DNA of 64,000 nt, taken from assembly GCF_900167375.1 (NCBI RefSeq), contig NZ_FUWY01000001.1:248001-312000 (forward strand). Direction: 5' to 3'. The notes beneath the pieces were generated by a model, which was not told where the DNA came from, ran no database searches, and saw nothing but the letters and a program-made list of their open reading frames with translations. Position 1 is the first letter of the stretch; each line of letters opens with the position of its first letter. Positions 4,748 to 9,990 of this stretch are shown here, in pieces. The position numbers were made by a program, and so were the translations under genes. Origin of the DNA: Anaerorhabdus furcosa. Lineage in GTDB: Bacteria > Bacillota_I > Bacilli_A > Erysipelotrichales > Erysipelotrichaceae.

Positions 4748-5008
4748 ATGAAAAAAAATAAGTATTTAGCCTTAATTTTCGCTATTTTAGCGCTTATTGA
4801 TACCCATGCTGCTTGCATTATTATAACGAGTGATTATGTCCATGGATATTATGCAGCAAAGTATATGTATGCCAGTGCTCCTGCATGGCTTGCATTTCTA
4901 TGGCTCATTCCTTTTGGATTTGGATTACTTTTATTTTCACTTCTTTCTATCAAATTTTATAAAGCCTACAAACAATCTTTGCAAAATCCTAAAGAATCTG
5001 ACGAATAA
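4748..5008 (+). CDS. Small two-span membrane protein, unknown
   Basis: An 86-residue protein with hydrophobic segments at about 7-28 and 44-68 and a charged C-terminus. AAGGAGAG precedes the ATG at good spacing. It points the same way as the ECF transporter operon, 69 bases ahead of the S component. A separate extended -10 promoter lies in that gap, so it may be an independent unit or the first gene of the operon. I recognise no family. Confidence 0.6.
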   Translation: MKKNKYLALIFAILALIDTHAACIIITSDYVHGYYAAKYMYASAPAWLAFLWLIPFGFGLLLFSLLSIKFYKAYKQSLQNPKESDE

Positions 5009-5077: not shown

Positions 5078-5632
5078 ATGACAAAGAAAAGTTTATTTTC
5101 TACAAAAACAATTGTGGCAACTGGTCTTGGGGCAGCATTATTCATGGTATTATTCATGTTTGTAAAAATACCTTCACCAATTCCTGAAACAAATTTACAA
5201 ATCGCTTATGGTGTATCTGCATTCTTTGGTGCAGTGTTTGGTCCAATTTGTGGTTTCTTAGTAGCATTCATTGGACATGCTCTAAATGACTTCAGTTATG
5301 GAGCTCCTTGGTGGAGCTGGGTTATCGCATCTGGGGTAGCTGCTGCTATTGGTGGTATGGTTTACTTCATGATTGATGCAGACAGTGGCAAAATCGGTAA
5401 ATCAGAAATTTTCAAATTCTGTGCTATGAATATCGTTGGTAATGCAATTGCATGGGTTATTGTTGCGCCAATATTAGATATCGTAATTTATGCAGAGCCT
5501 GTAAATCTTGTATTTACACAAGGTCTTGTTGCCTTTGTACTTGATGCAATATGTGCTTGTGTTGTTGGGTCATTATTATTGCTTGCTTACGCTAAAACAA
5601 AAACTAGTAAAGGCTCACTTACAAAAGAATAA
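5078..5632 (+). CDS. ECF transporter S component, UPF0397 family
   Basis: The 184-residue integral membrane protein matches UPF0397: GLGAALF near the N-terminus, FGPICGF, IGHALNDF, WWSWVIASG and a C-terminal LLLAYAKTKTSKGSL. S components bind the substrate and dock on the energising module; the downstream genes supply a fused double ATPase and an EcfT, so the transporter is complete. Databases sometimes call this family riboflavin-type, and comparative genomics has linked it to methionine regulation, but the substrate is unproven. Here it is followed by two SAM-hydrolase genes, pointing to an adenosine, SAM or methionine-related ligand (inference). Confidence 0.85.
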   Translation: MTKKSLFSTKTIVATGLGAALFMVLFMFVKIPSPIPETNLQIAYGVSAFFGAVFGPICGFLVAFIGHALNDFSYGAPWWSWVIASGVAAAIGGMVYFMIDADSGKIGKSEIFKFCAMNIVGNAIAWVIVAPILDIVIYAEPVNLVFTQGLVAFVLDAICACVVGSLLLLAYAKTKTSKGSLTKE

Positions 5633-5652
5633 TTATTATTACTTGTAACAGG

Positions 5653-5682
5653 AATGGGCTAATTGAATTTAGCCCATTTTTA
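5653..5682 (+). terminator. Intercistronic hairpin between S component and ATPase
   Basis: A perfect 10-bp stem (AATGGGCTAA at 5653-5662 with TTAGCCCATT at 5669-5678) followed by TTTAATT. It would let more S component than energising module be made, as expected if one module serves several S components (inference). Confidence 0.75.
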
Positions 5683-5707
5683 ATTAGTAGACAGACGAGG
5701 TGAAATT

Positions 5708-7417
5708 ATGAGACAACCTGTTATTCAATTTAAGGATTTTACTTTCCAATATTATTCCCAAGCAGAACCTACATTGCATAACATCAATTTAACGATTCAC
5801 TCTGGTGAAAAGATATTAATTGTTGGACCAAGTGGAAGTGGGAAAAGTACACTGGGGCATTGTTTAAATGGATTAATTCCTTTCTCATATAAAGGAGAAA
5901 TTCAAGGTTCATTATTGATTCATGATTCAGAAACAAAAACACAAACTTTATTTGATTTATCGAAACAAATTGGTACTGTTCTTCAAGATTCAGATGGCCA
6001 ATTCGTTGGATTAACCGTGGGTGAGGACATTGCATTCGCTTTAGAAAATGATAATGTTCCTTTACCTGCAATGAAAGACAGAGTTAAAAAAATTGCACAG
6101 CTTGTATCCATGGATGAGTTATTGGGTAGTAATCCCTTTGAACTATCTGGTGGGCAAAAACAACGTGTATCACTTGCGGGTGTATTAGTTGATGATGTCG
6201 ATATCCTTCTTTTTGATGAACCTCTTGCAAATCTTGATCCTGCAACTGGAAAAACTGCAATCGAATTGATTGATGATATTCATGATGAAGGAAAAACTGT
6301 TGTCATCATTGAACATCGTTTAGAAGATGTACTACATCGTAATATTGATCGCATCATTGTTATGAATGAGGGAAGAATTCTTATGGATGATACACCAAAC
6401 AATGTATTATCAAGCAACATTCTTCTTGAACAAGGGATAAGAGAACCCCTCTATATTACTGCGTGTAAATATGCAGGAATCAAAATCACACCTGATATGA
6501 ATCCTGAACATATCTCTACATTCAATATCGATGCTGTCGCAAATCAATTACAAAGTTGGTTCAAAACACATAACCGTACACTACCTACACCAAAAGAAAA
6601 ATCATTGCTTGAAATTAATCATTTGAGTTTTAGTTATGATGGTAGTCGTAAGATATTAGAAGATATTAACCTCATCATTAATGAAGGTGAAATGATTTCA
6701 ATTGTTGGTAAGAATGGTGCTGGTAAAAGTACACTTTCTAAACTTATTGTTGGATTTGAGAAAGAAGATAAGGGTTCGATTTTATTAGAAGGACAAGATT
6801 TAGTAAACTATACAATCAAAGAACGTGCAGAACATGTTGGTATTGTTTTACAAAATCCAAATCAAATGATTTCTAAAAACTTAATCTATGATGAAATCGC
6901 TTTAGGACTGCGCATACGAAATATTAATGAAGAAGAAATTGAAAAACGTGTTTTAGATGTAATGAAAATTTGTGGTTTGTTACCATTTAAGAGTTGGCCA
7001 ATTAGCGCATTAAGTTATGGACAAAAGAAAAGGGTAACGATTGCTTGTATCTTAGTTCTTAATCCTAAAATACTCATTCTTGATGAGCCTACAGCGGGTC
7101 AAGATTATCATCACTATTCAGAAATCATGGAATTCTTAGAAAGTTTAAATAAGAATGGTCAAACTATCATTTTAATAACACATGACATGCATTTAATGTT
7201 GGAATATACCCCTCGTGCTATTGTTCTTGCAAATGGAAAGAAATTAGCTGACACAAAAGCATATGAAGTCTTATGTGACCCTGTATTAATTCAAGAAGCA
7301 AATTTAAAAGAAACTTCATTATTTGAATTAGCACAAAAAGCACACATTAGTGACCCACTTAAATTCGTAGAATGTTTCATTATCCAAGAAAGAAGGGAAC
7401 GTAATCATGAAAGTTAA
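5708..7417 (+). CDS. ECF transporter fused double ATPase (EcfA-EcfA')
   Basis: 569 residues with two complete ABC ATPase domains in one chain. Domain 1 has Walker A GPSGSGKST (40-48), signature LSGGQKQR and Walker B LLFDEP. Domain 2 has GKNGAGKST (334-342), LSYGQKKR and LILDEP. Both look competent. Fused ATPases are typical of dedicated, operon-encoded ECF modules such as YkoD or the UPF0397-linked type. The gene overlaps ecfT by 11 bases. It drives import by the S component encoded upstream. Confidence 0.93.
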   Translation: MRQPVIQFKDFTFQYYSQAEPTLHNINLTIHSGEKILIVGPSGSGKSTLGHCLNGLIPFSYKGEIQGSLLIHDSETKTQTLFDLSKQIGTVLQDSDGQFVGLTVGEDIAFALENDNVPLPAMKDRVKKIAQLVSMDELLGSNPFELSGGQKQRVSLAGVLVDDVDILLFDEPLANLDPATGKTAIELIDDIHDEGKTVVIIEHRLEDVLHRNIDRIIVMNEGRILMDDTPNNVLSSNILLEQGIREPLYITACKYAGIKITPDMNPEHISTFNIDAVANQLQSWFKTHNRTLPTPKEKSLLEINHLSFSYDGSRKILEDINLIINEGEMISIVGKNGAGKSTLSKLIVGFEKEDKGSILLEGQDLVNYTIKERAEHVGIVLQNPNQMISKNLIYDEIALGLRIRNINEEEIEKRVLDVMKICGLLPFKSWPISALSYGQKKRVTIACILVLNPKILILDEPTAGQDYHHYSEIMEFLESLNKNGQTIILITHDMHLMLEYTPRAIVLANGKKLADTKAYEVLCDPVLIQEANLKETSLFELAQKAHISDPLKFVECFIIQERRERNHES

Positions 7418-8240
7418 AATGTTCTCTTACAATCAATTAGATACTTATATCCATCATTTAAGTGGTCTAACAAAATTTGTATGTTTCTTGTTATTAACAA
7501 CGACCGTCATGTTATCATTTGATATTCGTGTTATCTTATTTGTATTAATTTTGTCTTTTGCTTTATTCAAAGTTGCAAAAATAAAATTTAGTCAAGTTAA
7601 GCTTATGTTGATTTATGTCTTCATCTTCTTAATTACAAATTTCATTCTTACCTTTGTTTTTGCTCCATTACAAGGTGTTGAAATTTATGGTACTGAACAT
7701 GTGTTATTCACCATCGCAGGTCCATATGTTGTTACACTTGAACAACTATTCTATCAAATAACAAAGCTATTAAAATATTTATCTATTGTACCTCTTGGTA
7801 TTATGTTCTTTCTTACTACAAACCCAAGTGAGTTTGCATCATCACTAAATAAGATTAAAGTGAATTATAAAGCATGTACTGCTTTATCACTGACACTCCG
7901 ATATTTCCCAGATGTTCAACGTGACTATCATTCAATCTCACTTGCTCAACAAGCTCGTGGTACCGAATTATCAAATAAAGAGAAATTATCAAAACGATTC
8001 AAGAATATTATTTCTATTCTTACACCTCTTATCTTTACAACATTAGATCGAATCGAACTTATTACCAACGCAATGGAATTAAGAGGTTATGGTAAAAGCA
8101 AAACTAGAACTTGGTATGCATATCGTCCACTTAATAAAAACGATTACATCGCAATGGGAGTATGTCTTGCAATCTTTATCGCTTCACTTCTAATCACAAC
8201 TTTTGTAAATCATAGTATTTACTTTAATCCATTTATATAA
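7407..8240 (+). CDS. ECF transporter transmembrane component EcfT
   Basis: 277 residues with about six membrane segments. The cytoplasmic coupling region contains SLAQQARGTELS and ELRGYGKSKTRT, which match the two Ala-Arg-Gly type coupling helices of EcfT that contact the ATPases. It starts inside the end of the ATPase gene and ends 15 bases before the first SAM-hydrolase gene, so the genes are one operon. Confidence 0.9.
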   Translation: MKVKMFSYNQLDTYIHHLSGLTKFVCFLLLTTTVMLSFDIRVILFVLILSFALFKVAKIKFSQVKLMLIYVFIFLITNFILTFVFAPLQGVEIYGTEHVLFTIAGPYVVTLEQLFYQITKLLKYLSIVPLGIMFFLTTNPSEFASSLNKIKVNYKACTALSLTLRYFPDVQRDYHSISLAQQARGTELSNKEKLSKRFKNIISILTPLIFTTLDRIELITNAMELRGYGKSKTRTWYAYRPLNKNDYIAMGVCLAIFIASLLITTFVNHSIYFNPFI

Positions 8241-8255
8241 AAGGAGAATAAAAAT

Positions 8256-9101
8256 ATGGAAAAACCAATTTTAGTATTTCAAACAGACTTCACTTATAAA
8301 GAAGGTGCAGTATGTGCAATGTATGGTGTTGTTAAGAGTGTTGATCGCTCACTAGAAATCATAGATGGAAGTCATGAACTTCCTCAATATGATATTTGGT
8401 CTGCTTCTTATCGTTTATATCAATCGATGAAGTTTTGGCCAGAGGGAACTATCTTTGTATCTGTAGTAGATCCAGGTGTGGGCACTGCAAGAAAAGCCTG
8501 TGTTGCAAAGACAAAAGATGGCTACTATGTTGTAACACCTGATAATGGTGCTCTAACACACTTAATGAAGTATGTAGGTATCGAAGAGGTAAGAGAAATT
8601 GATGAAACAGTAAATCGTTTAAAAGGAAAAGGAACCGAAGGTGTTGCAATTTTCCATGGTCGTGATTTATTTGGTTACTGTGCTGCAAAACTTGCTTCTG
8701 GAATTATTACTTATGAACAAGTAGGACCAGCTTATCCAGTTGAAGAAATCGTAACTCATGAAATTTTAGAACCAACGCTTTCAGGTAATAAAGTTGACGG
8801 TATATTTGAAATCAATGATCCAAACTTTGGAAACTTATGGACAAATATCCCACTTGTTATGATGCATGAAGCTGGCTTCAATTACGGTGATTATCTCAAT
8901 GTTGAAATTAAGCACAAAGGTGAAACTGTTGTGAATAAACCAATTCTGTTCCACAAATCATTTGGTATGGCTTCTATCGGCGAACCAATTATTTATAATA
9001 ATGAATTGATGAAAGTGTCATTGGCTGTATCAATGGGTAACTTCGTCGAAGAATATCATTGTGACTTTGGTTCTGACTGGACCATCACTTTCACTAAATA
9101 G
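8256..9101 (+). CDS. SAM hydroxide adenosyltransferase (DUF62), copy 1
   Basis: 281 residues of the DUF62/fluorinase-like family, which hydrolyses S-adenosylmethionine to adenosine and methionine. The catalytic Asp-Arg-His triad is present: Asp and Arg seven apart in VVDPGVGTARKA, and His in FHGRD. QTDF near the start and TPDNGALT also match. It has no signal peptide, so it is cytoplasmic. It follows ecfT by 15 bases with a GGAGAATAAA ribosome site. The second copy follows 9 bases later. Co-transcription with an ECF importer suggests the substrate arrives through that transporter. Confidence 0.9.
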   Translation: MEKPILVFQTDFTYKEGAVCAMYGVVKSVDRSLEIIDGSHELPQYDIWSASYRLYQSMKFWPEGTIFVSVVDPGVGTARKACVAKTKDGYYVVTPDNGALTHLMKYVGIEEVREIDETVNRLKGKGTEGVAIFHGRDLFGYCAAKLASGIITYEQVGPAYPVEEIVTHEILEPTLSGNKVDGIFEINDPNFGNLWTNIPLVMMHEAGFNYGDYLNVEIKHKGETVVNKPILFHKSFGMASIGEPIIYNNELMKVSLAVSMGNFVEEYHCDFGSDWTITFTK

Positions 9102-9110
9102 GAGAATAAA

Positions 9111-9950
9111 ATGAAAAAAACTTTAGTATTACAATCCGACTTTGGATTAGTCGATGGAGCAATTAGTGCAATGGAGGGTGTTGCCTTTGGTGTTGATGAA
9201 ACATTACGTATTCGTAATCTTACCCACGACATCACACCTTACAATATCTTTGAAGCAAGTTACCGCTTATTCCAAACAGTAGAATATTGGTCAGAAGGTA
9301 CTGTCTTTGTTTCTGTTGTTGATCCAGGTGTTGGATCATCTCGTAAAAGTGTAGTTGCGCTTACAAACGCTGGACATTACATCGTTACACCAGATAACGG
9401 AACTCTCACTCATATCAAAAAATATATGGGAATTAAAGCAATTCGCGAAATATCAGAAGTTTCAAATCGCCGTGCTAATACAGAAGCGAGCTATACTTTC
9501 CATGGCCGTGATGTGTATGCCTTTACAGGTGCTCGTCTTGCTGCTGGTATTATCACATTTGAAGACGTTGGTCCTGAACTATCAGTTGAAAGAATTGTTG
9601 AATTACCTGTTACTGCAACAGAAGTTACAAGTGATTCTGTAAAAGGTTCTATTGATATCCTTGATGTTCGCTTTGGATCACTTTGGACAAGTATTGAACG
9701 TGAAGAGTTCTTAAGCATCAATCCTGCTTATGGTGAAAGACTTGAAGTTACTATCTACAACAATGATATGTTGGTTTATCAAAATCAAGTAATCTATGGT
9801 AAAAGTTTTGCAGATGTAAGAATTGGTTCACCAATTATTTATATCAACTCTGTTTACCGCGTAGGTATCGCAATCAATCAAGGTTCATTCTCAAAGGCAT
9901 ACAACATTGGTGTTGGTGCACAATGGAGTGTAGAAATTAAAAAAGCATAA
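9111..9950 (+). CDS. SAM hydroxide adenosyltransferase (DUF62), copy 2
   Basis: 279 residues, clearly paralogous to the gene before it and also with an intact triad (VVDPGVGSSRKS and FHGRD). Its N-terminus starts KKTLVLQSDFG. The middle and C-terminal halves differ appreciably from copy 1, so this is an old duplication, not a recent one, and the two may differ in substrate or form a hetero-oligomer (the family is trimeric). It is the last gene of the operon, followed by a terminator. Confidence 0.9.
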   Translation: MKKTLVLQSDFGLVDGAISAMEGVAFGVDETLRIRNLTHDITPYNIFEASYRLFQTVEYWSEGTVFVSVVDPGVGSSRKSVVALTNAGHYIVTPDNGTLTHIKKYMGIKAIREISEVSNRRANTEASYTFHGRDVYAFTGARLAAGIITFEDVGPELSVERIVELPVTATEVTSDSVKGSIDILDVRFGSLWTSIEREEFLSINPAYGERLEVTIYNNDMLVYQNQVIYGKSFADVRIGSPIIYINSVYRVGIAINQGSFSKAYNIGVGAQWSVEIKKA

Positions 9951-9954
9951 TATC

Positions 9955-9990
9955 AAAAAGATATGTTTAAATTGAGCATATCTTTTATTT
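9955..9990. terminator. Shared terminator between convergent genes
   Basis: AAAGATATG (9957-9965) pairs with CATATCTTT (9977-9985), with T-rich sequence after it on the plus strand and A5 (T5 on the minus strand) before it. It can end both the ECF/SAM-hydrolase operon and the convergent minus-strand gene. Confidence 0.7.

Follow-up and report, generated by a model that had tools for sequence, protein, structure and literature searches.

The closest described relatives of the locus reported here are streptococcal ECF transporters of the MtsA type. SSU0362 of Streptococcus suis is annotated as MtsA of a methionine-regulated ECF transporter (PMC9423846); the pneumococcal genes SP_0481-4, which have an MtaR/MetR site, have been put forward as a possible additional locus for methionine uptake (PMC3551916); and the promoter of pneumococcal spd-0431 is upregulated without methionine via the activator CmhR, at the box TATAGTTTSAAACTATA (PMC5359408). 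We identify spd-0431 as a DUF62 gene because of its gene order (Trk genes before, ribU after) and because a published primer encodes GLVDGA, a DUF62 motif. Published accounts of MtsA give it no substrate, and the DUF62 gene appears in them as a hypothetical protein; the Mts naming reportedly originates from a 2009 paper on ECF transporters.

In DUF62 chemistry, methionine is displaced from C5' of SAM and a sulfonium leaving group is needed, so that SAH and MTA are poor candidate substrates. The purpose of this SAM hydrolysis is debated: one proposal is that it removes the (R,S) epimer, which a 2025 paper doubts. Every part of the operon described below is a member of a known family; in the freely licensed papers searched we found no statement of a conserved, regulated DUF62-ECF pairing or its joint role as SAM salvage, or of SAM uptake by an ECF transporter.

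The window (the whole 64,000-nucleotide stretch of Anaerorhabdus furcosa DNA that was analysed) contains an operon in the order S-EcfAA'-EcfT-DUF62-1-DUF62-2, all on the + strand within 5078-9950. A sequence-only reading had placed an S component, a fused double ATPase, an EcfT and two DUF62 genes here, and Pfam and NCBIfam matches bear out all five:

5078..5632, + strand: S component, UPF0397 / PF07155, MtsA-type, 184 aa (PF07155 9e-43; predicted ECF S-component fold)
5652..5682, + strand: hairpin and T run in the S/EcfAA' gap, possible partial terminator (fold z -4.5 and sequence)
5708..7417, + strand: fused double ATPase EcfAA', 569 aa (two ABC_tran and DUF3744 in Pfam; NCBIfam ECF ATPase above cut-off)
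7407..8240, + strand: EcfT, 277 aa (CbiQ 1.5e-24, Pfam)
8256..9101, + strand: DUF62-1 (D1 clade), predicted SAM hydrolase, 281 aa (SAM_HAT_N and SAM_HAT_C; triad D72-R79-H134; separate clade)
9111..9950, + strand: DUF62-2 (D2 clade), predicted SAM hydrolase, 279 aa (SAM_HAT_N and SAM_HAT_C; triad D71-R78-H131; streptococcal type)
about 9956-9986, + strand: closing terminator-like hairpin with U tract (fold z -4.3)

The downstream genes are as tightly packed as had been described (overlaps or gaps of 9-15 bases): EcfAA' and EcfT overlap by 11 bases, and gaps of 15 and 9 bases separate EcfT from DUF62-1 and DUF62-1 from DUF62-2. The closing terminator of that description likewise corresponds to the last hairpin in the list, which is absent from the output of a simple terminator scan. 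The gap between S and EcfAA' is wider, at 75 bases, and includes a strong hairpin with T residues after it, so the S component may be produced in excess of the EcfAA'-T module. Just 5' of the S gene, window positions 4748-5008 encode an 86-aa hydrophobic protein with no Pfam or NCBIfam match.

With S, two ABC ATPase domains and T all together, the first three genes have the composition of a dedicated-module ECF transporter by both Pfam and NCBIfam. The AlphaFold2 model of the S component (pLDDT 94) adopts the six-helix ECF S fold as a predicted structure, with FolT, RibU and ThiT as its best PDB matches (TM about 0.6). Choosing a ligand from this fold was rejected: FolT, RibU, ThiT and BioY match about equally and none is singled out. 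In the tree, the S proteins linked to DUF62 form one clade (support 99), which also includes a few S-A-T sets without DUF62; solitary PF07155 proteins, including this genome's second copy, fall outside it.

The genome has no DUF62 genes besides the two in the window. Their products pass the Pfam cut-offs for PF01887 and PF20257 (SAM_HAT_N E 1.7e-45 and 1.4e-45 for DUF62-1 and DUF62-2, plus SAM_HAT_C) and, among solved structures, match hydrolases and halogenases (best E 1e-33 and 1e-34). They stay below the NCBIfam (R)-SAM hydrolase equivalogs NF058624 / NF053629, at 109.5 and 137.5 bits at best against cut-offs of 350 / 470. As had been read from the letters, both keep the Asp-Arg-His triad which marks hydrolases (PMC10491745), and in our alignment its residues fall on those of the solved hydrolase PH0463; the aligned chlorinase has no triad. 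Neither protein has a signal peptide, each opening at once with the first strand of its fold, so the enzymes should act in the cytoplasm, on a substrate that the cell must either import or make. A side finding was PDB 7ccg chain A, labelled "DNA-directed RNA polymerase subunit delta", which by its sequence belongs to the DUF62/halogenase family and looks mislabelled.

The sequence-only reading had proposed a survey of UPF0397/DUF62 co-occurrence, and had held that a missing neighbourhood link in relatives would speak against its idea; the link is present. In 395 genomes of the host's class, 18 have DUF62 and 316 have some PF07155 protein, and 14 of the 18 have a PF07155 S gene clustered with DUF62, against about 0.7 expected by chance (nominal P 2.7e-17, overstated as the genomes are related). 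Within the host's family, S, A, T and DUF62 genes are together in all ten linked genomes; the nearest named relative in searches was Floccifex porci (Erysipelotrichaceae). Most hits in a scan of named genomes came from streptococci, whose DUF62 proteins are 74-78% identical to window DUF62-2 and whose S proteins are 38-52% identical to the window S. There the DUF62 gene lies 22-98 bases 5' of the S gene on the same strand in 76/76 loci, a raw count inflated because the genomes are related and species recur (with many from S. suis). EcfA and EcfT are nearby in 48 of the 76 and elsewhere are farther away or beyond the fetched stretch; in several streptococci a nucleoside phosphorylase gene lies just 5' of EcfA. 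The orders seen are S-A-T-D1-D2, D2-S-A-T-D1, D2-S-A-T, D2-S with A-T apart, and S-A-T-M20-D2. The linkage of DUF62 with ECF genes is real and old, and from these varied orders selection, beyond common descent of one arrangement, seems to maintain their proximity.

Exceptions exist in both directions: three S-A-T sets of the same S clade have no DUF62 nearby, and four genomes of the class (loci L116, L117, L121 and L122) have DUF62 with no transporter nearby. The triad is intact in L116; the other three have FDGRD for FHGRD, changing the catalytic His to Asp, and L117 and L121 have a neighbour gene in common, for a 555-aa protein. In L129 (3178-12149) an insertion of two large genes on the opposite strand (577 and 636 aa) separates S from EcfAA', and all parts of the system are retained.

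Control regions of the relatives point to methionine in most cases. T-box leaders stand directly before S in L130, L131 and L183, operons of a divergent S subfamily, and by our reading rule (GAA or a close variant, one base, the codon, a purine) the specifier codon is AUG in 3/3. Applied to T-boxes of the same family before methionyl-, isoleucyl-, arginyl-, valyl- and histidyl/aspartyl-type synthetases and metN/metQ, the rule returned the expected codons, the target amino acid being taken from our own reading of the downstream proteins; judged from the leader sequences, the three T-boxes are most likely methionine-specific. The T-box operon of L183 (4490-9816) has the order S-A-T-M20-D2, with an M20 peptidase-family gene between EcfT and a DUF62 lacking the triad Arg and His; streptococcal metQNP operons also include an M20 gene. 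In 24 streptococcal loci the DUF62-S pair follows a metQ/M20/metN/metP operon, in some with an intervening gene, and none of the 24 has a CmhR-type box. The CmhR/MetR-type box, counted by the core pattern TATA(A/G)N7CTATA, occurs in 29/50 of the other streptococcal loci, with 0.18 expected over 75. The intervening gene is often Trep_Strep (PF09605), a second and unrelated S-type gene, between metP and DUF62-S (L063, L080, L083 and similar loci).

A purine riboswitch lies directly before S in L132 (9368-9469, - strand), upstream of an S-A-T-DUF62-DUF62 operon. We take the C at its position-74 equivalent to mark the guanine class, for which such an operon is an unusual target. Upstream of the window operon itself we found no RNA element (SAM riboswitch and T-box were sought at gathering and relaxed thresholds) and no CmhR or CmbR box; it therefore has no methionine-responsive element of the MtsA type, though its relatives carry such elements.

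The host genome encodes MetK, two MTA/SAH nucleosidases that score above cut-off, and a transporter of the MetNIQ type that has a Met T-box of its own. No homologue of MetE or MetH/MmuM was found in it (95.7% completeness, so that a gene may have been missed), and because of this absence the simplest reading is that the host is a methionine auxotroph.

We propose, as the probable though by no means certain function of the operon, a methionine-and-purine salvage in which SAM is imported and then hydrolysed. The UPF0397 S component would bind extracellular SAM, probably including the aged (R,S) epimer, and the dedicated EcfAA'T module would import it at the cost of ATP. Cytoplasmic DUF62 would then add water at the sulfonium C5', giving L-methionine, which could supply translation and MetK in a host with no recognisable methionine synthase, and adenosine, which could enter purine salvage. 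Three parts of this are ones that we infer: SAM as the ligand of S, its hydrolysis by both DUF62 proteins, and a response of the window copy to methionine.

Several lines of evidence lead us to this SAM-salvage reading: the lineage-wide linkage in several gene orders; the Met T-boxes, the purine riboswitch and the CmhR boxes or placement behind met ABC operons; the published induction of pneumococcal spd-0431 by methionine starvation (PMC5359408); the nucleoside phosphorylase adjoining EcfA in several streptococci; a host with MetK and MetQ and without MetE or MetH/MmuM; and cytoplasmic DUF62 proteins with the full triad in 46/50 linked rows. A methionine-short cell gains nothing by splitting SAM which it has made itself at the cost of ATP. 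A SAM hydrolase produced in methionine shortage would pay only with external SAM or with the waste (R,S) epimer, which favours SAM import. That both products are useful also agrees with the regulation seen, by methionine in most operons and by purine in one.

Against SAM salvage stand the S fold, which points to no ligand, and the window operon, which has no recognised methionine element. Triad residues are lost in the sole linked DUF62 of L120 and L183 and in one of the two copies in L130 and L133. The three S-A-T sets and four DUF62 genomes that are exceptions to the linkage also count against it, and imported SAM could in principle be used directly, with no hydrolysis needed. The earlier suggestion that DUF62 salvages an imported SAM-like compound has thus gained support from the linkage, the Met T-boxes, the CmhR boxes, the purine riboswitch and the published methionine regulation, while the ligand of S is still one that we infer.

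The sequence-only reading had also supposed that two hydrolases serve two substrates or form a heterotrimer. A requirement for two is not supported: in the tree DUF62 genes split into two old clades, D1 and D2, and streptococci retain only one, of the DUF62-2 type. The pair may still have a two-substrate or heterotrimer role, as D1 and D2 are old separate clades which differ in residues around the substrate pocket: in the FGN/FGS motif, which binds adenine in relatives, D2 has Ser in 33/33 rows and D1 mostly Asn, and in the methionine-carboxylate-binding region D1 has mostly Glu and D2 Ser. One rather speculative form of this, which we would not expect to hold, is that D1 and D2 have each specialised on one SAM epimer, (S,S) or (R,S), making a racemised external SAM pool wholly usable as methionine and adenosine.

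The alternative that survives best, which we regard as unlikely but deserving serious consideration, is that transporter and hydrolase share methionine control and not a substrate: the ECF transporter would import another methionine source (methionine, S-methylmethionine, methylthioadenosine, SAH or a precursor) and DUF62 would separately clear internal (R,S)-SAM, recovering methionine. This would agree with the preference of one characterised DUF62 protein for (R,S)-SAM and the epimer clearance proposed for it (PMC12120602, PMC10491745), with the annotation of the transporter only as methionine-regulated and with the S-A-T sets that have no DUF62. However, the DUF62-S pair is the constant core of the streptococcal loci even where EcfA and EcfT are elsewhere, and a pure methionine importer would hardly explain why one operon has a purine riboswitch.

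We think it improbable to a much greater degree that the hydrolases have shifted to some other adenosyl or base-modified sulfonium or halogen compound, imported via the same S, with SAM not the real substrate. The pocket differences between D1 and D2 and the few linked copies without the catalytic His could be read in this way, but the triad is otherwise kept, and control by methionine suggests that methionine is among the products.

The database name of the S family raises a further alternative, since the window S scores 199.9 bits against a cut-off of 99 for NF010182 ("riboflavin transporter"), the streptococcal S protein tested also falls under the NF010182/PF07155 name, and the window S has a weak similarity to S. 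aureus RibU (E 0.017). Neither an FMN riboswitch nor a riboflavin-gene context is seen at the window or immediately ahead of the linked operons that were examined; L098, L126 and L127 have an FMN riboswitch that stands before another S-type gene close to the operon. The family name may go back to RibV of Mesoplasma florum, whose prediction was based on a riboswitch and which the published complementation test did not include (PMC4418817). That the transporter carries riboflavin, with DUF62 nearby incidentally, is thus hardly credible given that all regulation found is by methionine or purine, and as the genomic context seen gives the name no backing, it is probably wrong for the DUF62-linked clade.

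Returning to SAM salvage, the recurrent pairing of importer and hydrolase suggests that the puzzling DUF62 enzymes salvage externally acquired SAM, and such pairing under methionine and purine control offers a concrete, cheaply testable answer to what DUF62 is for. If this is true, SAM joins the substrates of ECF transporters, and the "riboflavin" name of NF010182/PF07155 would need correction for the DUF62-linked subfamily.

Compared with known systems, the window operon is closest to streptococcal MtsA (S. suis SSU0362; pneumococcal SP_0481-4 / spd-0431), with which it shares the S family, the fused ATPase, T and a D2-type DUF62 that in all 76 streptococcal loci is the neighbour of S; it differs in its S-A-T-D1-D2 order, its second hydrolase and its lack of a CmhR box. 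Its DUF62 proteins resemble the (R,S)-SAM hydrolases (StDUF62; PH0463; MJ1651; NF058624, NF053629) in fold, in both domains and in the triad, but they score below the equivalog cut-offs, are tied to a transporter and are two old paralogues. The S, A-A' and T set is that of group I-like dedicated-module ECF vitamin transporters, with an S fold matching FolT, RibU and ThiT, whereas here SAM is the proposed ligand and hydrolases are encoded within the operon. Fluorinase (FlA) and chlorinase (SalL) belong to the same superfamily as the window DUF62 proteins but are without the hydrolytic triad, which both window proteins have.
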